From Owenia fusiformis (lineage: Eukaryota; Annelida; Polychaeta; Sabellida; Oweniidae), in the NCBI GenBank assembly GCA_903813345.2, contig CAIIXF020000012.1, positions 18,111,520 to 18,175,519 of the forward strand: 64,000 bases of DNA, in the 5' to 3' direction. Shown here piece after piece: positions 3,243 through 47,766 of this stretch. A program made the translations under genes and the position numbers. Positions within the stretch are counted from its first letter, which is position 1. Every line of letters starts with the position of its first letter. The notes below the pieces were generated by a model. That model was not told the origin of the DNA and did not search any database. It worked only from the letters and a program-made list of their open reading frames with translations.

Positions 3243-3458
3243 CATTCTTTGTCATGAGAACTTATAACAATGAATCAGATACTGAGAATGTCAGAGGAAA
3301 GGCATTCCTCAAGGACCAGATGACTGCTGGAAGGGGTAACGGTCTCATAGATTTTGAAGATAGTGATGTAACGAAATTTGATACACTAACAGACATGATC
3401 ATTGAATCATTAAGCCCTAAATGGAAGGATTGGGAGGCGGAGACAGGAGAAAAATGTG
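3243..3458 (+). CDS. vWA module 0, C-terminal exon (partial)
   Basis: This single exon (acceptor AG 3241-3242, donor gtaagt at 3459) encodes FFVMRTYNNESDTENVRGKA to TGEKCG. It aligns with the last exon of the two complete vWA modules downstream (FFALETA...KCG) and has the same phases, but it is 216 nt rather than 240 and strongly diverged. The MIDAS and central exons of this domain are not in the window. Confidence 0.75.
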
Positions 3459-13300: not shown

Positions 13301-16300
13301 GTTGTCAGTGTTTGGAATTTAGACCCAGCTGTGCAGAGGGGTATTGCTAAATGTGGCAAGTATAATTTTTGATGAATTGTTTTTATATAACTGGTTTTTA
13401 TATTGCATAATGATGGTGTGACAAAGAAGTTTGGGTCAGAGCCAAAACTAGATTTATTTAGTTTCCGATCCGACATTGAACTTTTGATACCTCCCCTTAA
13501 TCATATGTAAAACACATTTTTATTTGTGGCTATTTCCTCTTCAATTTCTAATTGTATTTTAACTAAATCTGTTTATTAACATATCAATTAGAATATTAAC
13601 TTGCCGGAAGGTGATTTGCCCCAACCTTATATATTCACTGTACACATCATGAATTTCTGATATAAGCCTATTGATTAAAAAATATACTGGAATATTAATT
13701 GGAGTATTCTGATGTGAGGTAGTTCAATAGGTTAATATACCATTTCAGAACCACCAATGACTTACACTCTTGATGGAGATTGGATTCCACCTCAAGAGGA
13801 CGAATGGAACGACTGGACAGTTGGTATTTGTGACAAACCTTGTGGTGGAGGTAAACGAACAGACACAAGGGATTGCAATGGTCTTAACTGTGTTGGAGAT
13901 GATGTCCGTGTATCTGATTGTAATACAGAACCATGTGGTAATTAATGAAGATTAATTCCTTATTGTATTTTATTTCCTTTACCACCAATACATTTCGGAA
14001 TACCTCTCGGGTTTCTCCCGTTTATGTATGGTCATAATTTGCAGAAGTAATCCTGGAAGACATACCTAGAAACTATTGCTTGAAGGAGTCCCTTGTTCCT
14101 ATATTTGAACTCATAAATACATGAAGGCAAACAAGTACACACAAAAGCCTTTTTAGAAGTCATGACCATTCAGATATCAACTCCCTGCTCAAGGTTATGT
14201 GACCAAATTCTATTACAATACAGGGATCTATTTTCTAGGATTTTGCTTTTTCTCTGCTGCTTTTCTAATTGTATGAGTATTTTGTTACTTAGAGCCAGTA
14301 GAGCCAGTGTATTCTGAATGGTTTGAAGATCAGGAATGTGACAGGAGATGCGGCACTGGAAAAAGGACTTTGATTCGTTTTTGTATCTCTGGCTGTGTTG
14401 GGGATGAACGACGTGATGAAGAATGCAATACTGATCCTTGCCCAACTAGTAAGTTACAATTGTACTTTTTTTTCTTTTTTTTGTACCTTGTGCATCGGTA
14501 AGATTGACCATTGTCCAACTTGTACGCTATTTTGTACCTAGTATATTGGTAAATGTGACCCTTACCCAACTTGTAAGTTACTTTGTACCTTATATCACTC
14601 AGATCTTTGCCCAACTAGTAAGTTACTTTGTACCTTGTAATACTATATTGACCCTTCCCCAACTTGTAAGTTACTTTATACCTAGTAACACTGACTCTTG
14701 CCCAACTTGTAAGTTACGTGTACTTTGTACTTAGTAACAGTGACCCTTGCCCTACTTGTAAGTCTTAACTTTAGTCTGTACCTTGTATATAATAGGGATC
14801 CTCACTCAACTAGAAGGTTGCATTAAATGAAATCTAGAGCAACCAGTTATACTTTATTGCAGCTGGACCTGACTGGTCGGATTGGACAATTAGTGAACCC
14901 TGTAGTAAAACTTGTGGAGGGGGAGTACTGTTAGAAACACGTATCTGTTTCACAGGAGATTGTGCTGGAGGCTCTAGGAGAACAGAAACTTGTAACACAG
15001 AGCCTTGCCCAGGTTACTACAGTCATCTTAAATAATTTAAAATACTTTACTTAAAGGACCCATATAAAGTTGAAACCACTTTGGATTATATTGACGTCTT
15101 ACCTAAAATGTTATCAAAATGTGATATGTGAAACTGTTTTTTAAATTCAAAAATTGATAAAAGCATATTTTCGAACTTTGCATGGGGCCTTTAAAGAATT
15201 AGATCGGTAAAGGAACTCGGGATATCATACCAACTAGAGAACTATTGTATCAACTTATATCAAGTTAGAGGCTTGCCCTAACGATTGGCTTACACAATAT
15301 TATTAATTGTATTTATCATGTTTTGCTATAATATTGTGAGAAATGTTATCATACAATCAGGATTATACTGTATACAGTTATTTTCCTATGTGAAATATTA
15401 TGTTATAAACTATGTTCACTTCTGTGAGATGACAATCTAAGTGAACAGTCGTTGTGTATATGAATATACAGTAACATATAGTCAATGTATTGGGTATGCT
15501 TGTATTAATAAGTGTATCCAGATACATGATTTCCAAAAATACAGGAATCAGTGATCCAGTTGCCTTTCATAACTTTATTTTGTGGAAGTTGATTGAGAAT
15601 TAGAAATCACTGCCTGTAGGCATACGAGGGTCGTTCAATAAATACAGATACGAACGGAGTGCTATTTCCATGTTTATGAAGGAATTAAAATCATTTTAAA
15701 TATCAGGTAGTTTAAAGTACATAATTTAAATATATATGAATTTCTTTTTATGTGCCAATACAATGTATTGAAATTTTGTACATACATACATACTGTAGTA
15801 CCTACAATTTCAGAGATTTTAAATTAAATTCCAAGATAGACATGAATTACATTTGTATTGGTATTCATTGAACACCCTCTGTATATATTGTTGATGCATC
15901 CCACATATGCATCACTACAAATGTTTGACATTTGTTATACAGGCTTGGTATAAAATTGCTAGAATTTATTTTTAAGTATCTAGTTATCATGAAATACAGG
16001 CCTTCATTGTAAGATCACATGATATAAAATTGTTGGATATTTCATTTTGTTTAATCAACAAGATTTACGAAAACTGTATTTCCACTGTTCTACTGGTTCA
16101 TTTGAGTTTCAAGGAAGTGTGTTTGAGATAGTGTCGTATTGCTTGTATCTGCAGTGATTCCTCCTATTGGCCAGGCTACAAGCTCTTATCGCCCTGATGG
16201 AACTGGACTCTTAGATGCATCTGGAAGTACAGATCCTGATGGCAGTATTGTTAATTACAAATGGATTTTGATAGGGTAAAATTATATGTTTTATAAGAAA

Positions 16301-19300: not shown

Positions 19301-22300
19301 CATGTCATTTCGCATAGTGAGTCTATCCTCCATCCATTTTAATTATAAGTCATGTCATTTCACATGGCTAGTCTATCGTCCATCCATCTAAAGTCATGAC
19401 ATTTCGCATAGTGAGTCTATCCTCCATCCATCTTAATTATAAGTCATGTCACTTCACATGGCGAGTAAATCGTCCATCCATCTAAAGTCATGACATTTCG
19501 CATAGTGAGTCTATCCTCCATCCATCTTAATTATAAGTCATGTCACTTCACATGGCGAGTCTATCGTCCATCCATCTAAATTAGAAGTCATGTCATTTCG
19601 CATAGTGAGTCTATCATCCATTTAATTATAAGTCATGTCATTTCACATGGTGACTCTATCATCCATTCCTCCATCAATCTTAATGTTAATTCATTTCATT
19701 TTCATTCATCCATTTTATACTATAAATCATGTCATTTTATTGTATTCACTAACAGTGGTCCCCCTGGTGTGACAATTACTCCCATTGGGGATGGTAGCTC
19801 TGGTAGTGTAAGTGGAATCAAACCTGATATAACTTACCAGTTCTCTCTACAAGTTAAGGACAATGATGGGATTACATCTGAGCCAGTCACTACTAGCCTA
19901 TTAGGTATGCATACTAGTATTATTAGAGAGATTTCGCAACTCACTTATAGCATGTTTATTATTCCCGTATAACTTACTTCATGCACTATTTTCACCAGAA
20001 TCATGAGATATTCACCGTCTATTCGGTGATGTCTATGTGAGGAAAGTCACAAAGGTAACATAAGAAAACAAGACAGATGGAATATGAAAAACAAAGCAGC
20101 AATTGAAAAAAGTTCCTTACATATTTGACAAAATTAGTTACTAAGAAAAAGCTATAGTCAGTGCAAAATCAAAAAAAGTTCAAAATTCAAATTCTGACTT
20201 AATTATCACAGATTTTACTATTTTACTAGTTATGATATATAGCACATTTGTTTGGGGTTATTGCACATTTGTTTGGGGTTATTGCACATTTGTTTGGGAT
20301 TATTGCATATTTGTTTGGGGTTATTTTATGTTTTGAATATTATTGACCTTATAGTGCAACCTCCAAAAGCCGTGGCAAGTAGTAGCTATACTGGCAATGG
20401 TAATGGAAAATTGAGTGCTGAAGGGAGTGAAGATGTTGATGGTTCAGTCGTAGAATATAGATGGAGGTATGTGTTATAATATAATAGAATACAAAATGAT
20501 ATAATGATAATATAACACAATATAATACTACAAAATGATATTATGATAATATGACACAATATAATACTACAAAATGATATTATGATAATATGACACAATA
20601 TAATACCTGAAAATGGGATAATATAAAGCATTCTGGAAATATTAATCTCTCTACAGTAATACCTGTATTTCGAACACGTCTCTAATTTGAACATTTTCCT
20701 GTGTGAACATTTTTCTCCCTTTTGTTATCTCCCATTGATTCACATTTAAAAAAACATTAAAATGGGAACACCTGCTAATCTACAGGACAGACGGAATATG
20801 AAAAGCAAATCGGCAATATTAAAAAGAACACTTTTTGCACAAATGGAGATCCCAATAATGTTTGGATTTGACACTCTTTCAAATTAATTTGGAATGAAAT
20901 AAAAATCAAAAAATAATCTCAAATCCTTGCCCATCAATCAATTAATCAGTCAATTCTGAGAAAGAATTCTTAAATTAAAGGGATTTCAAGTATAAGTGAC
21001 AATTATTTGATAAATACAGCTTTGGTTTGTTCTTTCAAAATGAGTCTCCATACTATTCTAATCCATTTCAGTGGACCCCCTTATGCTACTATTACTCCAA
21101 GAAGTGGCAAGACACCAGAAGTATCTGGCTTGAAGCCTGATGTAAGACAGGAGTTCACTGTGGTTGCCATAGATAATGATGGTCTAGAATCTGCACCAGC
21201 AAAAACTACAATATATGGTATGTATGCACTCATTCGGGAGTCAATATTTATTTCGGATAGGGGGATGTGCTTGAATTTCTAGAGTAGTACAATACGTACA
21301 TTTAACTCATACTTTTCAAGGTTCAAATTGAATATTCCACGATTACATGTATATGTTGCAACTGTATATATATGTGATATACCCAAGAAATATTGCTCAC
21401 CTTCATTGGTGGTAAACAAAATACAACGAAATTTACAAAATTGTCCGTTTCCCACTTCCCAAATTCAATTAATCCACCACTTCCTGATAGTTATTCATTT
21501 ATATTTCAGTCCAGTCTCCCACTGCTGTAGCCACCAGTGAATATATACCAGGATCAGATGGAAAAGCAGTACTTGATGGAAGTGCAAGTTCAGATCCAGA
21601 TGGCACAATTGTGTCCTATGAATGGCGAAATGTGTAAGCGCAAAATCTTGTTATGTAACCATATAGTCTCCAATTTGGTGTCTGTCACAAATGGCAGGTG
21701 GTGACATTTTGCATGTTAATGCCTTGTTCTTATTAGTATGGGACAGGGTTACAGATGTGAAGACCAAGAAAGGGTTGTCAATTAAGCAATAGTAAAAGTA
21801 ATCAAATCAGAAAACCTTAATTTGCACAGAAATATTGAAAATAATAAATTTTCTGGTCATTTTGGGAAAAAAAAATTTATTTTTAAAAGGTATATCTTGG
21901 ATTGAGTGAAAAGTTCATCATAATTGAACAGATGATTCAATGTATGAACAATGATTTTTCTTCTATTTTCTTCATTGCTTTATAAAATGGTTTAATGATG
22001 TTTTTATATTTCTAGTGGCCCCTCTGGCCCTGTGATTATGTCTAGAGGTCCTGGGAATCCTCTGGGAGATGTCTCTGGACTAGAGCCAGGTGTTAAGTAT
22101 GTCTTTGAGCTAGTTACAACAGACAATGAGGGCCTTAAGTCATCCCCTGCAACAACAACAATCAAAGGTATTAAACTAGCACCAATACATGTATGTTGAA
22201 ATATGCCAGTTTTTAATATTTAGATATGATTACTCATGGAATCCAAATTCAGTGAAACATACCTGTTAGTGGAACACCTTTAGAACCTCTGAAAAGTGTT

Positions 22301-28300: not shown

Positions 28301-31300
28301 AACTCAACAAATACTCAAAACTCAAAAAATTTCAATTCCAAGGTCCATATTAGATTGAACACTCAATTGCAGTTTTACCACTAAGAAGAGCATATCTGTT
28401 AAAGTATTGAATTTATGTGGTATATTTCTAGTATTCAAGCCTATGGCCATATCTGTTTAAGTATTGAATTTATGTGGTATATTTCTAGTATCAAAGCCTA
28501 TGGCCATATCTGTTAAAGTATTGAATTTATGTGGTATATTTCTAGTATCCAAGCCTATGGCCATATCTGTTTAAGTATTGAATTTATGTGGTATATTTCT
28601 AGTATCCAAGCCTATGGCCATATCTGTTTAAGTATTGAATTTATGTGGTATATTTCTAGTATCCAGGCCTATGGCCATATCTGTTTAAGTATTGAATTTA
28701 TGTGGAATATTTCTAGTATCCAAGCCTATGGCCATAGCAACAGGGGAGTATGATGATGGTGTTGGGAAGTTGAATGGGGAAGCAAGCTATGACGATGATA
28801 ACAACATAATCAGATATAAATGGAGGTGAGTTGAAACAATAATTGGTAAAAATCTCTACATCTACATGCGTGTTATGTTGACTTAATATAGTTTAAAACT
28901 AAGGATATCTGGCAACCTATATCCTTTGTTTGTTATGTCACCACCACAAGTGGTGACACAATGTTGTAGACTCTATTTTTGTGGATGCTATTCACACAGT
29001 TTGTGTTCAATGGTTGGTGTTTGGTGGTTGGTGTTTTGCAGTTGTAGTCTGTAATAAAGGGAAGGTGGTGACATTTTGCATGCTATTGAATATTTCCCGA
29101 TGTGAAAGAAATGATGATCCCCCAGGGATTATGGTCCCCTTTCTTAACGGCCCTTACTGGCCCTGGTTGCGTATAAGATTATGAGGGAAAGAGTTGTATT
29201 TAGGTCACCATATAAATCAATGGAGTGTAGGACCATGGTTTGATAGGACCTCCTACCCTTTTACACCGGCATGGACTATAACACAATAAACATGTATTTC
29301 CAGTTCACCAGAAGGCTATCAGATCACACAGTCAGACCCCAGTGATCCTAATGCTGTTGTTGACATCCCAGTGGCCTCTAAACGCATGTTTTACATGAGC
29401 GTTACAGATGATACTGGTCTTCAATCAGACACTGTTGAAGTTGAGCTTGCAGGTACAGAACACATATGAAATACATGTATATACTCAAGATACACTTCTT
29501 ACCTTTAAATGATTGAACCGGGGATTGAACCACTTTTCAACTTGCAATCAAAGGTACCTGTAAATGCACCCATGCATGAACTCATGACAGTAAATCGATA
29601 TAAAAATATAAATAAATACATGAATAAACATTTAATATTGATATGCTAAATTTCCAATATTATTTTGTTGTTCTTTTTTAGGCCCTCCATCTGCAATTAT
29701 TGGAGTGGAGAAGGATCCAGACACTCCAAATAAGGTGACCCTTGATGGTACAGAAAGTAAGCTGCCTCCTGGCAACAACAATGCACAATACAAATGGGAG
29801 GTTGTATCGTAAGTTTATTTCAATAACATTACCTCAATTCAGAATGGTCAATATTCCCTAGTTATAATGATTTCCTCTTCAATTAGAATTACACATTACA
29901 ATTTGAGTTACTATGATAACCAAGGCCACAAAATCAACATATCTGAGCCATAGTTTGATGATACTTAGTAGAATGCAGCATGCTTTTGGGCTATAGATAC
30001 TAATCTAGTATGCACAATAATCAGTAATAAACAGTAATCTAGTATCAGAGTATGCACAAGTTTTACAGCAAAATAAGCTTCACTTCTTGAACTTGACTGT
30101 CAGGTAAAGAGGATTCCCAGACCAGAAATTTATGGACAGAAGCTCATGCATGGCTATCTAATAAGTTATGGTACCCTCTGTGTTCTAGATCTCCACCAGG
30201 TGCACCTAAAGGACAGTTTGACAATGCATTTTCTCCCAAGCCTGAGCTGTCTAACCTCGTTGAAGGCAACTATGTTGTACAGCTAACTGTCACTGACCCA
30301 GATACAGGCCTTACAGCAGTAGATACCACTGAAATTCGTGTAGCAAGTATGTACATGTATGCTAAATAGATATTTGCCACATCAGGTTTCAATATTGCTT
30401 GAACAACAATATGAACAATTCAATGCTCATCTGGGTCAATTAAGAAGAAAGATACATAAGAAACAAATATATTAGACAAAAGTAAGATAAAAATGAAAAA
30501 TGTTGTGCTTGTATATTACCTGTATTCTGTATATTACCTCAGTTCTATGTATTACCTTTATTTTACATATTACCTGTATTTTGTATATTACCTCATTTCT
30601 CTGTATTACCTGTATTTTGTATATTACCTCATTTCTCTGTATTACCTGTATTTTGTATATTACCTCAGTTCCATGTATTACCTGTATTCTGTATCTTATC
30701 TGTATTTATACAAGTTGTATAACCAATACTCATGTGCTCATGTACTTGTAGAGACAACTGACCCTGTAGCTGTAGCAGAGGGGCAATACATAAAAGATGG
30801 TAAGGGTATGCTATCTGGAATAAAGAGCTATGATGAGGATAAAGATGGGCGAATAGTCAAGTATACATGGAGGTAAATTCTGCATTAAACCATGACCATT
30901 TGCATTGATTTAAATTGTTCAGTTATCTGTAATTAAGCCTTTCTAGTAACTAAAAATAATTCAATATTAAGAATTTTTCAGAATTATGCAGTAATAAAAA
31001 TTATAACATACCTATGATGATGTATAGTGTAAAGTGTACACAAGACAGCGGGCCAATATAAGTTGTGAAAAGCCTGCGCCCGCTAACTTTCTGATTGGTC
31101 AAGGCGCTGACGTCATAACCAATCAATCGAAGATAAATCTGCGCGAGCAATTTTTCTTTTCTTATTTCAATCATTTTCAAACCATTTGTTTGTCAATTCT
31201 ATAAAAAACGGTACTCTCTGACCAGTCCACATCATCATAGGTATGTTATAAATCGTTTATGTCACTATCGTGGCACATATGCCCTCGGTTCTCAGAGATC

Positions 31301-34300
31301 AATGTCCCTCCCAAGGTCGGGCCATATATCACTGAGACCTCGGGCATATATGCCACGATAGTGACATAACCTCTAACTATTTAGTTATCTGAGCTATTCA
31401 ATAATCCAAACTAATCAGAAGTATTCAGTCATAAAAAGTATTGATCAACAATGAGAAATTAATCAGCAATAAAGAATTAACAATATTAGCAATAAAGAAC
31501 TCAGAACTTTTCAGTAATAAGAAGTATCAATCAGCAATGAAAAATTGATCAACAATGAAAAATTAATCAGCAATGATAAAAGTTCAGTAGCCAGAACTTA
31601 GAACTTTTCAGTAATAAGAAGTATTAATCAGCAATGAAAACTATCCAGCATTTAGAACTTTACTAACCAGAAGTATTTAGTAAATAGAATCAGATCTTTT
31701 CAGTAATCAGAGGAATTTGTTTATCAAAACTATTAAGTAATCAGTGTCTTTTGACTTCCAGTGTGGCCTCTGGTGATGGCACAGAGGATGTAAGAGTTTT
31801 TGAGACAAAGGCACTTGGAGTGGCTGAAGTGTATGGTATCAAGCCTGCAACAACTGCTCAGTTCACCCTTGTGGTAGAAGACAACACTGGTGCCCTCTCA
31901 CAAGAGGCTAAAACAGAGATTTCAGGTCAGTACATCAAACTAGTCACTCATAATTTCACTACAGCAATACCTATATATTCAAATACCTCTAATATTAACA
32001 CAGCATACAAGCTTTTTCTGGTTCCACTATTTATTCGCCATGTTAAAAACTTTGAAATGTGAACACCTGCCACAAATGCCAGTTTGAATACTATTGGCCA
32101 GTCCAAGTGGTGATCGGATTAGACAAGTTATTTTCATTTTCATTTTATTAACTACAGTTTATAGCACATTACTAAGCTTACTAACCAGATACCCTTTGAG
32201 TTTGACCTATACTTAGAGCAATTCAATTTGATGTAAATGTTTTAATTGATACTCCTAGGTCCTCCTATAGCCAAGGCTGTACCATCATTTGAGACAAATG
32301 TTTTAATCAATACTTACAGGTCCTCCTATAGCCAAGGCTGTACCATCATTTGAGACAAATGTTTTAATCAATACTTACAGGTCCTCCTATAGCCAAGGCT
32401 GTACCATCATTTGAGACAAAAGTTTTAATCAATACTTGCAGGTCCTCCTATAGCCAAGGCTGTACCTTCATTTGAGACAAATGTTTTAATCAATACTTAC
32501 AGGTCCTCCTATAGCCAAGGCTGTACCATCATTTGAGACAAATGTTTTAATCAATACTTACAGGTCCTCCTATAGCCAAGGCTGTACCTTCATTTGAGAC
32601 AAATGTTTTAATCAATACTTACAAGTCCTCCTATAGCCAAGGCTGTACCTTCATTTGAGACAAATGTTTTAATCAATACTTACACGTCCTCCTATAGCCA
32701 AGACTGTACCATCATTTGAGACAAATGTTTTAATCAATACTTACAGGTCCTCCTATAGCCAAGGCTGTACCATCATTTGAGACAAAAGTTTTAATCAATA
32801 CTTACAGGTCCTCCTATAGCCAAGGCTGTACCATCATTTGAGACAAAAGTTTTAATCAATACTTACAGGTCCTCCTATAGCCAAGGCTGTACCATCATTT
32901 GAGACAAATGTTTTAATCAATACTTACAGGTCCTCCTATAGCCAAGGCTGTACCTTCATTTGAGACAAATGTTTTAATCAATACTTACAGGTCCTCCTAT
33001 AGCCAAGGCTGTACCATCATTTGAGACAAATGTTTTAATCAATACTTACAGGTGCTCCTATAGCCAAGGCTGTACCATCATTTGAGACAAATGTTTTAAT
33101 CAAAACTCCTAGGTCCTCCTATAGCCAAGGCTGTACAATCATTTCAGACAAATGTTTTAATCAATACTTACAGGTCCTCCTATAGCCAAGGCTGTACCAT
33201 CATTTGAGACAAATGTTTTAATCAATACTTACAGGTCCTCCTATAGCCAAGGCTGTACCTTCATTTGAGACAAATGTTTTAATCAATACTTACAGGTCCT
33301 CCTATAGCCAAGGCTGTACCATCATTTGAGACAAATGTTTTAATCAATACTTACAGGTCCTCCTATAGCCAAGGCTGTACCTTCATTTGAGACAAATGTT
33401 TTAATCAATACTTAAAGGTCCTCCTATAGCCAAGGCTGTACCTTCATTTGAGACAAATGTTTTAATCAATACTTACAGGTCCTCCTATAGCCAAGGCTGT
33501 ACCATCATTTGAGACAAATGTTTTAATCAATACTTACAGGTCCTCCTATAGCCAAGGCTGTACCTTCATTTGAGACAAATGTTGTAATCAATACTTACAG
33601 GTCCTCCTATAGCCAAGGCTGTACCATCATTTGAGACAAATGTTTTAATCAATACTTACAGGTCCTCCTATAGCCAAGGCTGTACCATCATTTGAGACAA
33701 ATGTTTTAATCAATACTCCTAGGTCCTCCTATAGCAAAGGCTGTACCATCATTTGAGACAAATGTTTTAATCAATACTTACAGGTCCTCCTATAGCCAAG
33801 GCTGTACCATCATTTGATACAAATGTATTAATCAATACTTACAGGTCCTACTATAGCCAAGGCTGTACCATCATTTTGAGACAAATGTTTTAATCAATAC
33901 TTACAGGTCCTCCCATAGCCAAGGCTGTACCATCATTTTGAGACAAATGTTTTAATCAATACTTACAGGTCCTCCTATAGCCAAGGCTGTACCATCATTT
34001 GAGACAAATGTTTTAATCAATACTTACAGGTCCTCCTATAGCCAAGGCTGTACCATCATTTTGAGACAAATGTTTTAATTAATACTTACAGGTCCTCCTA
34101 TAGCGAAGGCTGTACCATCATTTGAGACAAATGTTTTAATCAATACTTACAGGTCCTCCTATAGCCAAGGCTGTACCATCATTTGAGACAAATGTTTTAA
34201 TCAATACTTACAGGTCCTCCTATAGCTAAGGCTGAACCATCATTTGAGACAAATGTTTTAATCAATACTTACAGGTCCTCCTATAGCCAAGGCTGTACCA

Positions 34301-37300
34301 TCATTTTGAGACAAATGTTTTAATCAATACTTACAGGTCCTCCTATAGCCAAGGCTGCACCTTCATTTGAGACATATGTTTTAATCAATACTTACAGGTC
34401 CTCCTATAGCCAAGGCTGTACCATCATTTGAGACAAATGTTTTAATCAATACTTACAGGTCCTCCTATAGCCAAGGCTGTACCATCATTTGAGACAAAAG
34501 TTTTAATCAATACTTACAGGTCCTCCTATAGCCAAGGCTGTACCATCATTTGAGACAAAAGTTTTAATCAATACTTACAGGTCCTCCTATAGCCAAGGCT
34601 GTACCATCATTTGAGACAAATGTTTTAATCAATACTTACAGGTCCTCCTATAGCCAAGGCTGTACCTTCATTTGAGACAAATGTTTTAATCAATACTTAC
34701 AGGTCCTCCTATAGCCAAGGCTGTACCATCATTTGAGACAAATGTTTTAATCAATACTTACAGGTGCTCCTATAGCCAAGGCTGTACCATCATTTGAGAC
34801 AAATGTTTTAATCAAAACTCCTAGGTCCTCCTATAGCCAAGGCTGTACAATCATTTCAGACAAATGTTTTAATCAATACTTACAGGTCCTCCTATAGCCA
34901 AGGCTGTACCATCATTTGAGACAAATGTTTTAATCAATACTTACAGGTCCTCCTATAGCCAAGGCTGTACCTTCATTTGAGACAAATGTTTTAATCAATA
35001 CTTACAGGTCCTCCTATAGCCAAGGCTGTACCATCATTTGAGACAAATGTTTTAATCAATACTTACAGGTCCTCCTATAGCCAAGGCTGTACCTTCATTT
35101 GAGACAAATGTTTTAATCAATACTTAAAGGTCCTCCTATAGCCAAGGCTGTACCTTCATTTGAGACAAATGTTTTAATCAATACTTACAGGTCCTCCTAT
35201 AGCCAAGGCTGTACCATCATTTGAGACAAATGTTTTAATCAATACTTACAGGTCCTCCTATAGCCAAGGCTGTACCTTCATTTGAGACAAATGTTGTAAT
35301 CAATACTTACAGGTCCTCCTATAGCCAAGGCTGTACCATCATTTGAGACAAATGTTTTAATCAATACTTACAGGTCCTCCTATAGCCAAGGCTGTACCAT
35401 CATTTGAGACAAATGTTTTAATCAATACTCCTAGGTCCTCCTATAGCAAAGGCTGTACCATCATTTGAGACAAATGTTTTAATCAATACTTACAGGTCCT
35501 CCTATAGCCAAGGCTGTACCATCATTTGATACAAATGTATTAATCAATACTTACAGGTCCTACTATAGCCAAGGCTGAACCATCATTTTGAGACAAATGT
35601 TTTAATCAATACTTACAGGTCCTCCCATAGCCAAGGCTGTACCATCATTTTGAGACAAATGTTTTAATCAATACTTACAGGTCCTCCTATAGCCAAGGCT
35701 GTACCATCATTTGAGACAAATGTTTTAATCAATACTTACAGGTCCTCCTATAGCCAAGGCTGTACCATCATTTTGAGACAAATGTTTTAATTAATACTTA
35801 CAGGTCCTCCTATAGCGAAGGCTGTACCATCATTTGAGACAAATGTTTTAATCAATACTTACAGGTCCTCCTATAGCCAAGGCTGTACCATCATTTGAGA
35901 CAAATGTTTTAATCAATACTTACAGGTCCTCCTATAGCCAAGGCTGCACCTTCATTTGAGACAAATGTTTTAATCAATACTTACAGGTCCTCCTATAGCC
36001 AAGGCTGTACCATCATTTGAGACAAATGTTTTAATCAATACTTACAGGTCCTCCTATAGCCAAGGCTGTGCCATCATTTGAGACAGGAGTACCTGTGATA
36101 GATGCTTCCAACAGCCTGTTGCCACCTGGTCACACTGGCCTGTACAGGATTGAACAACTCGAGTAAATACTCAATTAATGTACAGTATCTTGCCAAATCA
36201 GTCTCATACCTGTCAGAACTTGTACTATAACAGTAACTTAAATAACTTAACAAGACTGCCAAAAACCAACCACCAAATTCTGAACATTGTCCACAAAAAT
36301 GTTGGAGACTATAACATGTCACCACCTTCTGCTGGTGGTCAAGGAGGATTGACTTTTTGTATTGAAATAAGGCCAAAAGTTGTGATTTAAATTTTAGAGT
36401 GTACAAAATGTGGTTGCTTGAATTCAAATTTTGTAATCAGGACATCTCCATATATGGCAAAAAACGAGTTGGAAGCCTGGGATCCAATCCTCCTTGACTG
36501 TTGGTGACATACGCATAAAACAGTAAAAGGTGTTTCTATCCTTCTACGATCTATTTCATATATGACCTGCTTTCAGTGGACCCACTACTGCTAATATTGC
36601 TGATCCACAATCTCCAGTGACAGAAGTGGAAAATCTTGTGCCAGGGGTGTACTCTTTCCGAGTCACTGTTACTGATGAGCAAACTGGACTTGTAGACTGG
36701 ACAACTGTACAGATTACTGTCTCTCGTAAGTATGTTTGGCTAGGTTAAATACCACCTTGAGCACAGAGTACCACAACGCACAACAAGATGTAACACTCAC
36801 TATCTTCTAAAAGTCACATTGTAAAACAAGCACAAAAATAGTACATCTTTATTCTTTAGCCAGAGAGTAGTAAAACAATGGAATTGTATACCAGATTGGG
36901 TAGTTAACGCACCAAGTGTAAATCAGTGCAAAAATAGGTTGGACTCTTACTGTTGCAATCACCCAATACCCCATTTTATACACAATTGGTTAAATAGGCA
37001 TATAAATATGCCTATAAACCGTTATACACTTTTAAAAACTTTATAAACAGGGTTTAGTTCTAAACTAATAAATTCTGAATAGATTGAACAATTTTACAGT
37101 TCAGGACACTCATTTCGTCTGCCAGTGTCCAGTGACCATCACATTTAAACATGTCATAAATCAATTCAAGTTCATCATGCTGCCATTTTCAGTTCAATAA
37201 AGAAGAATTGTTAAAGCTTTTCAAGAATAAAGATACCTCAATACCATATCATCTACATTCCTGTTTCTATTAGGTGATGGAGGTTGGAGTGAATGGGTCG

Positions 37301-46300: not shown

Positions 46301-47766
46301 ATCTTTGACTTGAGATAGCAGAATACTATTTCATTGAAAGAATTTGTAAGAATACTGTATGTTTGGCTGATGAGTTCCAGTTGCACATGCCAGTACATTT
46401 GCTTTGTATAATTGCAGGTGTAAAACGTAGCAAAAGACATAGTCATTCTGGCCAGAGGACAGAATATAGTGGTCATTCTGGCCAAAAGACAAAGTATGGC
46501 GGCTATTCCGGCCAGAGGACAAGATACAGCGGCCATTCTGGCCAAAAGACAAAGTATGGCAGCTATTCCGGCCAGAGGACAGGATACGGTGGTCATTCTG
46601 GCCAGACAACAAGATACAACAGCCATTCTGACCAGAAAACAAAATACAGTGGCCTGTCTGGCCAGAAGACCAAATACAGCAGCTATTCTGACCAGAAGAC
46701 GAGATATGGTGGCTATTCTGGCCAGAAGACTAGATATGGTGGCCATTCTGGACAAAAGACAAGATATGGTGGCCATTCTGGACAAAAGACAAGATATGGT
46801 GGCCATTCTGGACAAAAGACAAGGTACAGTGGCCTTTCTGACCAGAAAACAAAATACAGCAGCCTATATGACCAGAAGACAAGATATGGTGGCCATTCTG
46901 GCCAGAAAACCAAATACAGTGGCCTATCTGACCAAACGACGAGGTACAGTGGCCATTCTGGCCAAAAGACGAGATACAGTGGCATATCTGGCCAGAGGAC
47001 CAAATACAATGGCATTTATGGAAGCAAAACAAATTACAAAACGGGTGGTAAAGGTGGCAGTAGCAGTGATAGCAGCCATTCTGGCCAAAAGACAAGATAC
47101 AGTGGCATATCTGGCCAGAGGACCAAATACAGTGGCGTTTATGGAAGCAAACCATATTACAAAACGGGTGGTAAAGGTGGCAGTAGCAGTGATAGCAGCC
47201 ATTCTGGCCAAAAGACAAGATACAGTGGCATATCTGGCCAGAGGACCAAATACAGTGGCGTTTATGGAAGCAAACCATATTACAAAACAGGTGGTAAAGG
47301 TGGCAGTAGCAGTGATAGCAGCAAAAGCAGTCATGGAAGCCACAGCAAGCATAGTAGCCACAGCAAACATAGTAGCCACAAGAAGCATAGTGGCCACAGC
47401 AGTAGCCACAGCAGTAGCCACAGCAAACATAGTAGCCACAAGAAGCATAGTAGCCACAGCAGTAGCCACAGCAGTCATGGCAGTAGCTCATCATCTGGCT
47501 CACATGAGCGACAACGTGTTTCAAAGATCAAGTACACAGGACAAACAAGACCAAGACCAACCATAAGAGTAACTGCGCAGACCACAACACCAGCTCCTTC
47601 CCCTAAGTGCATCACATACCGGTTCTCTAAGAATAACATACCCCAGCTTAGACCTATAGCTCGGAATTGTGCTTCTAGGCAAAACTTTATATGTATGAAA
47701 CCTTGCCTGGCCCGACCACCAGCCATTCCAACAAGTACACTTCCTCCCAGGCTTAACTTTGGTTAG
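3243..47766 (+). CDS. Large mosaic extracellular protein: vWA/TSP1/PKD/TSP1/C-type lectin (3' part, 52 exons)
   Basis: Exons were chosen from AG/GT borders and phase continuity. Their lengths sum to a single open frame of about 2,879 residues plus TAG at 47764-47766. Module order is vWA C-terminal exon, vWA, TSP1, vWA, TSP1 x3, PKD-like x14, TSP1 x4, Thr-rich stalk, C-type lectin domain with an internal repeat insert. All modules belong to secreted or cell-surface families that bind matrix, carbohydrate or other proteins, and I see no transmembrane segment after the lectin domain. Nearly all introns between modules are phase 1, the usual state for exon-shuffled extracellular domains. The start codon and signal peptide lie left of the window. 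Inference: a secreted adhesion, matrix or mucus protein. I do not recognise a named orthologue. Exons are itemised in the module entries. Confidence 0.85.
3550..4860. repeat. 80-bp (2 x 40) minisatellite carrying the next exon's 3' splice site
   Basis: About 15 dimers of 80 bp. Each half has TTTCAGTGAGGCCAC or TGTCAGTGAGGCCAC followed by about 25 bp. The real exon at 4884 starts with the same TTTCAG/TGAGGCCAC, so the array multiplies that acceptor. In the first half, units alternate CATTG and CAGTG, giving a 160-bp higher-order period; later units are homogeneous. Confidence 0.85.
4884..9137 (+). CDS. Linker + vWA module 1 (5 exons)
   Basis: Exons are 4884-4943 (Pro-rich linker VRPPPRPKPDIGG), 5274-5389, 6268-6425, 6939-7084 and 8898-9137. 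The vWA fold is recognised from the first strand plus metal site CGIDLVIMMDSSTTVS (a D-x-S-x-T form of the MIDAS), VGLVVYSGAV, and SIILNIGDGAVNA in place of the usual TDG strand. The domain ends FSKCG. Family members bind protein or matrix ligands through the metal site. Exon lengths 60/116/158/146/240 are identical to those of module 2, so the five exons were duplicated as a block. The fourth intron carries the 1.2-kb element at 7283-8515. Confidence 0.85.
7283..8515. mobile_element. Non-autonomous element with GCTCACATGGTG termini and internal tandem blocks
   Basis: GCTCACATGGTG near 7285 is mirrored by CACCATGTGAGC at about 8491-8502. Inside is a (GTCTGTCC)n stretch, then four diverged copies of a block starting CCTCTGTCGATAGGATTCC (near 7380, 7530, 7850 and 8213) with CAAAATGGCCGCC-type cores. 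No ORF is present. It lies in an intron of vWA module 1. Confidence 0.6.
9456..9832 (+). CDS. Short linker exon + TSP1 domain 1
   Basis: A 33-nt exon (9456-9488, EPPAPNQDDELS, donor gtgagt) leads to 9680-9832, a TSP1 repeat: IPEYSEWFEGEPC, VTCGGGQKQEIRFC, VDCNTDPCPT. Six cysteines and the CxxTCGGG core are present. The first Trp of the usual WxxW C-mannosylation motif is Tyr (YSEW). Confidence 0.8.
10085..10400. repeat. 42-bp minisatellite, about 7 copies
   Basis: Unit of the form TATGTGAATATGTAGCATGG plus GGACCAGTTCTCCGCTTTG. Intronic, 5' of the vWA module 2 linker exon. Because 42 is a multiple of 3 it leaves a spurious repeat ORF on the minus strand. Confidence 0.85.
10744..13355 (+). CDS. 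Linker + vWA module 2 (5 exons)
   Basis: Exons are 10744-10803 (Pro/Thr linker PTTPRPKPTTVALDD), 11511-11626, 12065-12222, 12422-12567 and 13116-13355. Motifs are CSIDLAIMVDASQTVS (D-x-S-x-T MIDAS), VGLVVYSGDIMEKVTF, SIILNIGDGAINAKKRG and FFALETANMKDPENAFGHTV. It is close to module 1 throughout. The MIDAS exon is preceded by a 75-bp tandem array that carries copies of its own 3' splice site. The last exon has a GC rather than GT donor (gcaagt at 13356). Confidence 0.87.
11161..11535. repeat. 75-bp tandem array carrying the vWA module 2 MIDAS-exon acceptor
   Basis: Five 75-bp units begin at 11161, 11236, 11311, 11386 and 11461. Each holds GTGATTGCAG then CTTGCAGCATTGACCTTGCT, which is the acceptor plus the first 25 nt of the exon. 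Only the last unit continues into the exon (11511). In the first four, the frame hits TGA within the unit. Confidence 0.9.
11665..11990. repeat. Dispersed-repeat fragment and 31-bp minisatellite
   Basis: 11665-11750 is a repeat shared with 26480-26610 (CATGCAGTTTTTCA...TTTTGGCCA). From about 11755 to 11990 a unit near TACATTGTACTCTACATTG plus TATTTCTATAAA repeats about eight times. Intronic. Confidence 0.75.
12778..13025. mobile_element. hAT-type MITE
   Basis: Left end CAGGGGCGGATCTGGGA and right end TCCCAGATCCGCCAGTG are inverted repeats of the type seen in metazoan hAT-derived MITEs. The interior is GGGCCC/AAAA-rich with a G homopolymer. I cannot define a clean 8-bp target duplication. Confidence 0.65.
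13749..13937 (+). CDS. TSP1 domain 2
   Basis: One exon, acceptor tttcag, donor gtaatt. After a linker (EPPMTYTLDGDWIPPQED) it encodes EWNDWTVGICDKPCGGGKRT, TRDCNGLNC and VSDCNTEPCG. WxxW and six Cys are present. TCGGG is PCGGG here, so the Thr that can carry O-fucose is missing. Confidence 0.8.
14293..14448 (+). CDS. TSP1 domain 3
   Basis: One exon encodes EPVEPVYSEWFEDQECDRRC, GTGKRTLIRFC, GCVGDERRDEECNTDPCPT, then donor gtaagt. The first Trp is replaced by Tyr (YSEW), as in TSP1 domain 1. The exon end and donor have been copied several times into the following intron (see 14504-14820). Confidence 0.8.
14504..14820. repeat. Degenerate tandem copies of a 5' splice site
   Basis: After the TSP1 domain 3 exon end (TGCCCAACTA/gtaagttac), the intron repeats about seven diverged copies of a 35-60 bp unit with CCCAACTTGTAAGTTACTTT. 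Each therefore carries the exon's last bases and a donor-like GTAAGT. Copies are interrupted or mutated (for example TGTACGC, AGAAGG). Confidence 0.75.
14863..15012 (+). CDS. TSP1 domain 4
   Basis: One exon encodes GPDWSDWTISEPCSKTCGGG, VLLETRICFTGDC and RTETCNTEPCPG. It has full WxxW, CSKTCGGG (possible O-fucose site) and six Cys. It ends in phase 1 at gttact, a weaker donor than its neighbours. It is the last TSP1 before the PKD series. Confidence 0.8.
15051..15194. mobile_element. Short MITE with TTAA ends
   Basis: TTAAAGGACCCATATAAAG at the left mirrors CATGGGGCCTTTAA at the right. A TTAA at each end suggests a piggyBac- or Kolobok-like target. A related copy is at 16319-16615, and a possible third end lies at 18727-18740. 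Confidence 0.6.
15624..15882. mobile_element. Mariner-type MITE
   Basis: Left end ACGAGGGTCGTTCAATAAAT and right end ATTCATTGAACACCCTCTGT are inverted repeats flanked by TA. GAGGGT.GTTCAATAAATA is a typical mariner terminus. About 260 bp, no ORF, in the intron before PKD domain 1. Confidence 0.7.
16155..16891 (+). CDS. PKD-like domain 1 (2 exons)
   Basis: Exons 16155-16275 and 16737-16891. First half: PPIGQATSSYRPDG, LDASGSTDPDGSIVNYKW. Second half: GPPDGVSIVP, YEFSLVVVDDDGEES. This is the PKD/beta-sandwich pattern (S-x-D-xDG...Y-x-W, then a V-x-D-xxG strand). All fourteen domains share intron phases 1-2-1. Confidence 0.75.
16319..16615. mobile_element. MITE with TTAA ends, second copy
   Basis: Starts TTAAAGGCCCCATATAAAGT and ends with the near-inverse CATATGGTCCTTAA. 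The first 80 bp match the element at 15051-15194. In the central intron of PKD domain 1. A GTCACCACC motif lies inside. Confidence 0.5.
17143..17615. repeat. 37-bp minisatellite, about 13 copies
   Basis: Unit TTCATTCATTATTGAGTTCA plus CTTACAAGCACATCATA, with a few GTT/ATT variants; very homogeneous. It ends about 25 bp before the PKD domain 2 acceptor. Confidence 0.9.
17641..18375 (+). CDS. PKD-like domain 2 (2 exons)
   Basis: Exons 17641-17755 and 18224-18375. Motifs: PPQAKATSEYVPNSNG, LDGSGSIDNGVVVDYKW, then TFNLLVRDDDGLVSEP. The exon follows directly on a 37-bp tandem array in the intron. That array does not include the acceptor. Confidence 0.75.
18760..19904 (+). CDS. PKD-like domain 3 (2 exons)
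   Basis: Exons 18760-18871 and 19756-19904. Motifs: VEQPVAVPEVEYTGDGNG, FDPDGTIEAYQW, GPPGVTITPIGDGSSG, YQFSLQVKDNDGITSEP. The central intron is largely filled by a 57-bp-type tandem array. Confidence 0.75.
19085..19740. repeat. About 57-bp minisatellite, about 11 copies
   Basis: Unit includes AAGTCATGTCATTTCACATG plus GCGAGTCTATCGTCCATCCA, with length variants lacking the AATTA segment. It occupies most of the central intron of PKD domain 3, ending near the acceptor at 19755. Confidence 0.85.
20238..20620. repeat. Two short tandem arrays either side of PKD domain 4 exon 1
   Basis: 20238-20330 holds four 21-bp units (TTGCACATTTGTTTGGGGTTA). 20480-20610 holds three to four units near 39 bp (ACAATATAATACTACAAAAT...). 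The coding exon 20355-20466 lies between them. Confidence 0.75.
20355..21217 (+). CDS. PKD-like domain 4 (2 exons)
   Basis: Exons 20355-20466 and 21072-21217. Motifs: VQPPKAVASSSYTGNGNG, GSEDVDGSVVEYRW, GPPYATITPRSG, FTVVAIDNDGLESAP. It has the same first-exon length (112 nt) as domains 3 and 7. Confidence 0.75.
21510..22167 (+). CDS. PKD-like domain 5 (2 exons)
   Basis: Exons 21510-21633 and 22016-22167. Motifs: SPTAVATSEYIPGSDG, SASSDPDGTIVSYEW, GPSGPVIMSRGPG, FELVTTDNEGLKSSP. Its first exon is nearly identical in DNA to that of domain 9, pointing to recent duplication or gene conversion. Confidence 0.75.
22290..23055. repeat. 39-bp minisatellite, about 19 copies
   Basis: Unit GTGTTCCACTAAGTTACTAA plus CAGGGATGTGCCACTTGCAAAA. 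The 39-bp period keeps frame, producing artefactual repeat ORFs on both strands. It grows out of a dispersed repeat (AGTGGAACACC..., 22265-22330) also seen near 20660, 24530, 32045, 38280 and 45125. Confidence 0.9.
23150..23970 (+). CDS. PKD-like domain 6 (2 exons)
   Basis: Exons 23150-23270 and 23828-23970. Motifs: ESPKAVATGEYIPGSNG, FDGQGSSDDRQIVSYEW, GTPGLVIEDP, YKVELLVTDDDGLTS. The first exon belongs to the same sub-group as domains 5 and 9. Confidence 0.75.
24332..25035 (+). CDS. PKD-like domain 7 (2 exons)
   Basis: Exons 24332-24443 and 24890-25035. Motifs: VERPVAVADADFIGDGEG, DSFDPDGNVVSYEW, GPDGVQIIPNGNG, YEFSLVVTDDDGLKSEP. Confidence 0.75.
25185..25878 (+). CDS. PKD-like domain 8 (2 exons)
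   Basis: Exons 25185-25302 and 25730-25878. Motifs: NRPKAKATSSYTTNGEG, SQSHDIEKDGEIVRYIW, PDLTFTPLGDG, YEITLVVEDKDGLQS. The intron before it is only 149 bp, the shortest between two modules. Confidence 0.72.
26162..27102 (+). CDS. PKD-like domain 9 (2 exons)
   Basis: Exons 26162-26285 and 26954-27102. Motifs: PPTAVATSEYIPGSGG, SASSDPDGTIVSYDW, GPPGVSISPRGNG, YVFTLVTTDNNDLKS. The Gly after the acidic pair in the last strand is Asp (NND), unlike most copies. Confidence 0.75.
27545..28269 (+). CDS. PKD-like domain 10 (2 exons)
   Basis: Exons 27545-27662 and 28109-28269. Motifs: ISPVADAQSEYAEGG, SFDTDSNKGELMFEW, QVSGPRDALINPTG, YVFQVEVTDKHGLTS. Phase continuity across acceptor tatag/GCAAGTG decides the second-exon start. 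Confidence 0.7.
28380..28735. repeat. 57-bp tandem array carrying the PKD domain 11 acceptor
   Basis: Six to seven units with TATTTCTAGTATCCAAGCCT plus ATGGCCATATCTGTTTAAG. The real exon begins TTTCTAG/TATCCAAGCCTATGGCCAT at 28717, so each unit repeats the acceptor and about 20 coding bases. Upstream copies vary (TATTCAAGCC, TATCAAAGCC). Confidence 0.88.
28717..29452 (+). CDS. PKD-like domain 11 (2 exons)
   Basis: Exons 28717-28825 and 29304-29452. Motifs: SKPMAIATGEYDDGVG, YDDDNNIIRYKW, SPEGYQITQSDPSD, FYMSVTDDTGLQSD. The acceptor and first coding bases are the last unit of a 57-bp tandem array (28380-28735). Confidence 0.7.
28933..29075. mobile_element. TGTCACCACC-family repeat
   Basis: GTCACCACCACAAGTGGTGAC at 28936 forms a small palindrome, followed by a GGTTGGTGTTTGGTGGTTGG stretch and GGTGGTGACATTTTGCATG. 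Same family as 40622-40765. Intronic. Confidence 0.55.
29682..30346 (+). CDS. PKD-like domain 12 (2 exons)
   Basis: Exons 29682-29808 and 30189-30346. Motifs: GPPSAIIGVEKDPD, LDGTESKLPPGNNNAQYKW, SPPGAPKGQF, YVVQLTVTDPDTGLTA. The loop before the YxW is PPG-rich, a feature shared only with domain 14. Confidence 0.72.
30505..30700. repeat. About 36-bp pyrimidine-rich tandem repeat
   Basis: Units of TATTACCTGTATTTTGTATA and TTACCTCATTTCTCTG alternate upstream of the PKD domain 13 acceptor. The resulting T-rich tract leads into the exon at 30752, but the splice site itself is not repeated. Confidence 0.75.
30752..31925 (+). CDS. PKD-like domain 13 (2 exons)
   Basis: Exons 30752-30872 and 31762-31925. 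Motifs: TDPVAVAEGQYIKDG, SYDEDKDGRIVKYTW, VASGDGTEDVRVFE, QFTLVVEDNTGALSQ. Its central intron holds two foldback MITEs (31002-31250 and 31255-31371). Confidence 0.72.
31002..31250. mobile_element. MITE with 22-bp perfect inverted ends, CRE and CCAAT boxes
   Basis: 31002-31023 and 31229-31250 are perfect inverted repeats (core ACATACCTATGATGATGT). The interior has ATTGG at 31094, the palindrome TGACGTCA at 31108-31115 and CCAAT at 31119, all within 30 bp. No ORF. Intronic. Confidence 0.75.
31255..31371. mobile_element. Short palindromic element
   Basis: Arms TTATGTCACTATCGTGGCA and TGCCACGATAGTGACATAA (about 35 bp with ATATGCCC beyond) enclose about 45 bp. It sits 4 bp from the previous element. 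Confidence 0.65.
32255..36085. repeat. 3.8-kb, 61-bp tandem array carrying the PKD domain 14 acceptor, about 62 copies
   Basis: Unit: TTTTAATCAATACTTACAG then GTCCTCCTATAGCCAAGGCT, GTACCATCATTTGAGACAAA, TG. The bases after TTACAG are the start of the exon at 36048 (GPPIAKAVPSFET). A few units carry CTCCTAG instead of CTTACAG, and some are 62 bp (CATTTTGAG). As 61 is not a multiple of 3, read-through shifts frame and meets a stop. Rare variants recur 1,712 bp apart, showing an internal segmental duplication. Confidence 0.93.
36048..36725 (+). CDS. PKD-like domain 14 (2 exons)
   Basis: Exons 36048-36162 and 36577-36725. Motifs: GPPIAKAVPSFETGVPVIDA, PPGHTGLYRIEQLE, GPTTANIADPQSP, YSFRVTVTDEQTGLVD. 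The Trp of the usual YxW is replaced (YRI). The exon start is the terminal unit of the 61-bp tandem array at 32255-36085: only this last copy continues into sequence that encodes a domain and ends in a donor (gtaaat), so it is taken as the functional exon. Confidence 0.7.
36255..36510. mobile_element. Copy of the TGTCACCACC dispersed repeat
   Basis: Contains CACAAAAATGTTGGAGACTA, ACATGTCACCACC and, 180 bp on, TTGGTGACAT. It matches the family at 28935, 40625, 50820, 51245, 57850 and 59350. It lies between the exons of PKD domain 14; the minus-strand frame across here is a shadow. Confidence 0.55.
37274..37441 (+). CDS. TSP1 domain 5
   Basis: 168-nt exon: GGWSEWVVGDCSVTCGGGSR, TRQCNNPPPSNGGKQC, ESCNAQACPG, donor gtaagt. 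It has canonical WxxW, CSVTCGGG (O-fucose-type) and six Cys. It is one of three nearly identical 168-nt exons. Confidence 0.88.
37853..38020 (+). CDS. TSP1 domain 6
   Basis: 168-nt exon: VDGGWSEWVVGDCPVTCGGG, QCNNPPPINGGKQCDG, EICNTQLCPG, donor gtgagt. The sequence is very close to domains 5 and 7. CPVTC replaces CSVTC. Confidence 0.88.
38340..38630. repeat. 33-bp minisatellite, about 9 copies
   Basis: Unit TTTGCTATAGATTTCCATGG plus TCCCATTTTTGAA, frame-keeping on both strands and so giving artefactual ORFs. It is flanked by halves of the GAACACC dispersed repeat (38275-38335 and 38640-38670), into which it has expanded. Confidence 0.88.
38816..38983 (+). CDS. TSP1 domain 7
   Basis: 168-nt exon: VDGRWSEWNVGDCSVSCGGG, QCNNPPPSNGGKQCDG, ESCNAQACPG, donor gtaaga. 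Same length and phases as domains 5 and 6. The O-fucose-type Thr is Ser here. Confidence 0.88.
40030..40575. repeat. CATT/CATCA-rich tandem repeat
   Basis: Degenerate TCATCATTTCACATGTCATC units of 20-30 bp, most regular at 40440-40570 (ATGCCTCATGTCATTATTTC). Two segments around 39820 and 40235 also share CATTTGTTCTTTCCTCATTG, so part of the region was duplicated. Confidence 0.7.
40622..40765. mobile_element. TGTCACCACC-family MITE, best copy
   Basis: Starts TTATGTCACCACCACAAGTG, runs through GGTGGTTGGTGTTCGGCGG and ends GTGGTGACATTTTGCATG. The ends are inverted (GTCACCACC / GGTGACA). Other copies occur in both orientations across the window. Confidence 0.6.
41495..42144. mobile_element. Mariner-type non-autonomous element, about 650 bp
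   Basis: ACAGGGTGGGACAAAAAATT at the left mirrors AATTTTTATTGGCCCACCCT at the right, with TTGGAACATTTTT continuing the terminal repeat. No transposase frame is visible inside. A related end type occurs at 60400-60647. Confidence 0.7.
42711..42887 (+). CDS. TSP1 domain 8 (divergent)
   Basis: 177-nt exon: VNGGFSDYVCGDCSVTCGDD, RSCTNPSPLNGGLQC, TQPCTDSPRC. The WxxW motif is lost (FSDY) and an extra Cys precedes the core, so disulfides may differ from the other copies. It is separated from domain 7 by a 3.7-kb repeat-rich intron. Confidence 0.78.
43085..43650. repeat. About 51-bp minisatellite, about 9-10 copies
   Basis: Unit AACCCTAATGTAGCACACCT plus TAGCCCTAATGTACTACAATAAAACCCCTTTA in pieces. 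It lies just upstream of the stalk/lectin exon; the acceptor (TTTACAG at 43682) is outside the unit. Confidence 0.85.
43683..45584 (+). CDS. Thr-rich stalk + N-terminal two thirds of C-type lectin domain (3 exons)
   Basis: Exons 43683-43974, 44816-44946 and 45504-45584. The first encodes a Thr/Ala/Pro/Glu stalk (TTTTESTTLPTEATAPPTEA), likely O-glycosylated, then CQCPEGWLSHGC. Next come WYFDQVTWETAEAQCVEDGG and HLLWNTEDEAECLEDF, then ADWWTCGTTPSGEEIDTIW and SCDGG. This is the C-type lectin order: CPxGW, TWxxAxxxC, the GGxL strand, the WxxCG strand. I see no EPN/QPD plus WND pair, so sugar binding cannot be claimed. The rest of the domain is in the next exon after a long insertion. Confidence 0.8.
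46418..47766 (+). CDS. Last exon: decapeptide and Ser/His repeats inserted in the lectin domain, then its C-terminal part
   Basis: Acceptor attgcag at 46417; stop TAG 47764-47766. After GVKRSKRHS come about 23 copies of a decapeptide of the type HSGQKTRYGG (variants with YSGQRT, LSDQKT). Three of the later blocks end in YGSKxxYKTGGKGGSSSDSS. A Ser/His/Lys stretch (SHSKHSSHKKHSGHSSSHS) follows, then RPRPTIRVTAQTTTPAPSP. The end, KCITYRFSKNNIPQL, RPIARNC and NFICMKPC, matches the closing strands of a C-type lectin domain (C...L...C...FIC). The repeats therefore lie inside the domain, between SCDGG and KCITYRF. They are basic and rich in Tyr, Gly, Ser, Lys and His. The overlapping long frames in other phases and on the minus strand are by-products of the 30-bp period. 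Confidence 0.82.

Follow-up and report, generated by a model that had tools for sequence, protein, structure and literature searches.

In the window, a 64,000-nucleotide stretch of DNA (C12:18111520-18175519), a 61-bp unit made of the end of an intron and the start of the following exon is repeated 63 times, an exact copy number that rests on one assembly. So many near-identical copies in one run are not a chance event. The array is probably a boundary-spanning minisatellite, of the kind named "mirage", that was amplified near-neutrally and is masked by splicing. The kind itself is already known, and what is new here is the size, the lineage and the prevalence of such arrays. The anatomy of the array, the coding outcome of each of its acceptors, the duplication of a block of its units, and further cases at acceptors and donors were all observed. 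The array and the exons around it are located in the window as follows:

31762..31925, + strand: upstream exon, second half of PKD domain 13, donor TTTCAG/GTCAGT (open frame, splice-site scores and sister-exon similarity)
31926..36047, + strand: intron of 4122 nt (gene model)
32235..36085, + strand: array of 63 copies of the 61-bp intron-end/exon-start unit (Tandem Repeats Finder, unit splitting and genome search)
36048..36162, + strand: authentic exon for the first half of PKD domain 14 (from phase 1 to 2)
36577..36725, + strand: next exon, second half of PKD domain 14

Tandem Repeats Finder gave the array a period of 61, 63.0 copies and 96% matches, and the units lie head-to-tail inside a large gene on the + strand. 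After splitting, 55 of the 63 units are 61 nt long and seven are 62 nt, while the first was cut by the script at 63 nt. The unit consists of 24 nt of intron end, with a branch-point-like AATCAAT followed by TTACAG or a variant of it, and about 37 nt of exon start (GTCCTCCTATAGCCAAGGCTGTACCATCATTTGAGAC). Twenty units are identical to the consensus, AATCAATACT is present in 58, and an AG stands at the acceptor position in 61, units 7 and 8 being without it. A search of the 498-Mb, 525-contig assembly with the unit, in which very common words were skipped, placed all 63 matches within the array itself, and assembly searches recovered neither the array nor its downstream exons a second time. An earlier note on this DNA had described the unit as 61 bp with a branch-point-like motif, TTACAG and the exon start, and this composition is seen in the split units. 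The array that it reported is real and ends where it said, but the start shifts from 32255 to 32235 according to Tandem Repeats Finder, and its "about 60 copies" become 63.

The host gene was modelled simply, from splice-site and codon scores, with 35 exons. It contains thrombospondin type 1 exons (the single one scanned matches TSP_1 with E 5.8e-11) and paired PKD exons, of which the first halves run from phase 1 to 2 and the second halves from phase 2 to 1. There are 14 first-half PKD exons in the model and the array exon is the 14th, in agreement with the "PKD domain 14 exon" of the earlier note. This exon is 115 nt long, starts inside the last 61-bp copy and ends at the donor CGA/GTAAAT; translated by hand together with the next exon, it matches Pfam K319L-like_PKD (E 1.1e-9). 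The array intron is the longest of 34 modelled introns, for which the median is 461 nt. Its first 309 nt are unrepeated and carry their own donor, and the start of the array exon agrees in phase and place with the starts of its 13 first-half PKD sisters, indicating that the intron predates the array. The intron after the array exon holds a dispersed repeat of about 150 bp (36349-36501), with at least 39 other genome matches of 78-86% identity among the 40 of 941 candidates that were scored. Elsewhere in the window, at 46444-47322, a 30-bp tandem repeat (SGQKTRY-like units) is followed by Ser/His-rich repeats, all within a 485-codon open frame on the + strand.

When the 61 AG-bearing acceptors were read to the donor at 36162, the frame was open only from the last copy, and the other 60 led to a stop 11-44 codons into the exon. 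The acceptor scores range from -3.3 to 6.0, and 44 of the 62 decoys score exactly the same as the authentic site (4.4), suggesting that position rather than strength should choose the acceptor. Exon definition predicts choice of the exon-proximal site, and use of that site is the simplest rule that would yield the protein. The last acceptor, 36048, is thus presumably the site used. With regard to the cryptic frame-shifted transcripts proposed in the earlier note, the premature stop that they would meet from all but one of these acceptors is present in the DNA, but the use of a decoy is only possible.

In the explanation that we favor, a tandem duplication would have copied a 61-bp piece across the pre-existing intron-exon junction, and slippage and unequal exchange would then have amplified it to 63 copies, with the 28-unit block described below as the latest step. 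Exon definition would pair the downstream donor with the nearest acceptor, which is the only choice that leaves the exon short (115 nt) and the frame open, and transcripts using a decoy acceptor would meet a stop and should be degraded. Since splicing would mask the array in this way, the repeat may be close to neutral. Last-acceptor use, decay of mis-spliced RNA and a slippage origin are what we infer here.

The variation among the units bears on this neutrality. The AG letters of the decoys vary at 1.6% per site (2 of 124 cells, a count of low power), compared with 1.9% for the whole 61-bp unit and 1.6% for its exon part, and the most variable positions are the three letters directly before the AG (5, 6 and 7 of 62). 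The AG is thus roughly as variable as the remainder of the unit, and there is no visible constraint on the decoys and no visible purging of them. Among the units, 27 distinct point variants occur in an ordered arrangement. A recent higher-order duplication of 28 units pairs units 9-32 with units 37-60, and 23 of these 24 pairs in its core are identical. Of the three readings offered in the earlier note, neutral expansion is therefore the best supported, by the AG variation and by the recent block. In addition, a hexamer in the unrepeated intron lies exactly 61 bp upstream of the same hexamer in the first unit, which raises the possibility that the first duplication arose from a short direct repeat across the junction. 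The two features are:

32704..34226, + strand: core of the higher-order duplication; its second copy lies 1712 bp downstream, and the two differ by one mismatch (33866)
32226..32231, + strand: ATTTGA in the unrepeated intron flank, read from the sequence, with a presumed role

The array is not the only one of its kind. At least 15 further splice-site arrays were found in the examined part of the genome, including three in the same gene and two in PKD loci on C1:

11157..11535, + strand: acceptor-spanning array in the same gene, 75 bp x 5, authentic exon 11511-11626
28391..28736, + strand: acceptor-spanning array in the same gene, 57 bp x 6, authentic PKD exon 28717-28825
14437..14763, + strand: degenerate donor-spanning array in the same gene, six GT-bearing copies downstream of the exon end at 14448
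3895-4653 of PKD locus L006 (C1): acceptor array, 64 bp x 12
2583-3258 of PKD locus L004 (C1): acceptor array, 61 bp x 11

The translation of exon 11511-11626 begins CSIDLAIMVDASQTV..., and we take it to be a VWA domain from its appearance. The exon end at 14448 reads CCCAACTA/GTAAGTTAC. The decoys lead to a stop in 5 of 5 cases at the 28391 array and in 4 of 4 at the 11157 array. In L004 the authentic site is CACAG whereas most upstream copies have CAAAG, so the authentic site is the better one there. Six dynein arrays also span junctions, at acceptors in L021 and L029 and at donors in L022, L024 and L026 (two), although the L029 array includes only about 3 nt of exon. In the myosin locus L030 all four arrays span junctions (two donors and two acceptors), and in L031 the single array does not. 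Wherever the exon could be placed in the PKD, dynein and myosin cases, the real site is the copy nearest to the exon. Several other arrays end about 1 to 30 nt from an acceptor without crossing it (17132-17614 and 20238-20325 in the window, 7388-7603 in L003 and 2881-3120 in L015).

The repeated acceptors might instead be active, serving as a reservoir of U2AF, SF1 and U2 or as decoys for them, with the length of the array tuning the splicing of the exon. The 62 extra copies (60 with AG) within 4 kb, 44 of them scoring like the authentic site, would suit such a role. In the window gene, moreover, the mirage acceptors 11511 and 28717 are the weakest and third weakest of 35, and 36048 scores 4.4. 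However, when site strength was compared over the window and the dynein loci, with four L030 sites left out, neither the mirage acceptors (n=7 vs 158 others, P 0.47) nor the mirage donors (n=5 vs 165 others, P 0.17) were weaker, and the decoy AGs are kept no better than other positions. An active role is thus unlikely. Compensation for weak sites, which the window gene alone had suggested, was rejected on the same comparison, and the splicing-factor sink of the earlier note finds no support, the related weak-site test having failed.

An artefact, in which the assembler over-expanded or duplicated a truly short array, is also quite improbable. The 1712-bp block is indeed present twice with very few differences, as such an error would leave it, but the ordered patterns of the 27 point variants speak against this, as do the 675-bp downstream flank, which is single-copy except for the dispersed repeat, and the occurrence of the same kind of array at many other junctions. 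Recursive splicing, in which an early acceptor rebuilds a donor from the AG/GT found in nearly every copy and stepwise removal gives the same product, is very improbable: the unit junction CAG/GTCCTC occurs in the consensus and most copies and re-splicing would yield the correct mRNA, but as a donor it stands at the 3rd percentile of 165 donors and its GT belongs to the glycine codon at the exon start, and we rejected this reading because the rebuilt donor is weak. Frame-preserving use of the units was rejected as well. Among the periods of 15 junction-spanning arrays (61, 75, 57; 61, 64; 87, 71, 41, 58, 59, 30; 64, 83, 91, 260), 4 are divisible by three, which shows no frame preference.

The frequency of arrays at junctions was estimated in a repeat-blind sample of 15 dynein heavy chain stretches of 10 kb and 2 myosin stretches, chosen from Pfam hits. 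Arrays with at least 3 copies and a period of at least 25 were scored, which covered 19 of the 20 in the 17 stretches; the L025 array (8810-9877), near which no exon was placed, was left out. Exon edges came from between-locus similarity and a small splice-site matrix, and several were placed by eye, namely one in L022, one in L017 and one added in L024, while a false block inside the L022 array was removed. For L030, the exons at arrays were placed by eye with the open frame and the splice signals as guides, and the L031 exons are raw Pfam match blocks. A junction is spanned by 10 of the 19 arrays, four of them contributed by the one locus L030, where random placement in the same stretches expects 1.81 (P ~1e-6). 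Without the by-eye L024 exon the count is 9 of 19 (expected 1.71, P 8e-6), and with denser placeholder exons as the L030 null the expected count is 2.93 instead of 1.81. The dynein loci alone have 6 of 14 spanning (expected 1.18, P 4e-4), or 5 of 14 without the by-eye exon (P 0.002), and dynein repeats of 1.8 to 3 copies have 4 of 13 (expected 1.35, P 0.03). In the PKD stretches L003-L014 (120 kb), 2 of 7 distinct arrays under the same thresholds span a junction, as judged by eye on incomplete exons. In the window gene alone, arrays are not enriched at junctions (3 of 15, expected 2.07, P 0.34), with the 14437-14763 array among the 15 but scored as non-spanning, since the repeat finder's edges miss the junction. 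The non-spanning arrays are not clearly nearer to junctions, with 2 of 8 (dynein, P 0.08) and 3 of 12 (window, P 0.14) within 30 nt.

Splice-site repeats look common in this probably annelid genome. The tolerance of the array is straightforward, and the unexplained excess at junctions is the interesting part, since neutrality alone does not explain why 10 of the 19 scored dynein and myosin arrays span one. As a tentative suggestion, which we hold to be possible rather than probable, tandem arrays of this genome may preferentially arise, or preferentially survive, at splice junctions: duplications close to exons would be frequent, purely exonic copies would be purged, and copies straddling a junction would be hidden by exon definition and so become a main class of within-gene tandem repeat. 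Lancelets and this probable annelid may then share a splicing-linked instability. To judge from the number of such arrays in dynein and myosin genes, a whole class of duplications may be shielded by splicing, with consequences for gene annotation and for ideas on the origin of tandem repeats and of new introns. The choice of a splice site among dozens of near-identical acceptors is also a natural experiment, in which strength is near constant and position varies, so the exon-proximity rule becomes directly measurable.

The host genome is probably that of an annelid. It contains a let-7 match of 67 bits, above the cut-off, a full-length bantam-like match of 53 bits, below the cut-off of 61, and three matches to Eryth_link_C (erythrocruorin linker family) above the cut-off in one cluster, whereas a search by mitochondrial COX1 gave no match. 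Of these markers, let-7 points to bilaterians, bantam marks protostomes, and the erythrocruorin linker family marks annelids.

Boundary-spanning minisatellites, or mirages, have been described in lancelet genes, and in the portions of these accounts drawn on here they have tandem units of 10-72 and 150-160 bp across real splice junctions, 3' or 5', many with intact AG/GT, and are reported without interference with regular splicing (PMC3087553, PMC3902484). As far as those portions go, our array is similar in its minisatellite-size unit (61 bp x 63), in the predicted exon-intron boundary that the unit spans, with a last copy that would start an open, in-phase PKD exon with a Pfam match, and in the AG kept in many copies (61 of 63). 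It differs in having 63 units, against the 6 and 3 given for two haplotypes of lancelet BflGb6, in its probably annelid host, and in being known here from DNA alone. No mirages outside lancelets were found in the literature searched, most subscription journals lying outside its coverage. Earthworm metallothionein is another annelid gene with large intronic minisatellite arrays, which the available text places within intron 1 with no mention of junction spanning (PMC12783039). Intron gain by tandem genomic duplication, in the AG/GT proto-splice-site model as outlined in the part of the source used, similarly involves tandem duplication of an AGGT-holding piece (PMC3087553). However, here the intron predates the array and the duplicated exonic segment does not make up the whole intron; intron gain is ruled out by the 309 nt of unrepeated intron and by the intron place shared with the sister exons. 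Introner-type elements are ruled out too, as they are dispersed and all 63 unit matches, from the search that skipped very common words, are at one locus.

Some smaller observations concern duplications at exons elsewhere in the genome. L017 (6533-6815) and L027 (5623-5869), both in gene orientation, hold two-copy duplications of 140 and 121 bp, each with a donor site, which are possibly an early stage of such arrays. In addition, G000:C9:37986009-37994334 (minus) holds twelve separate matches to myosin head model positions 18-84, which together resemble a set of alternative versions of a single motor exon within a gene for myosin heavy chain.
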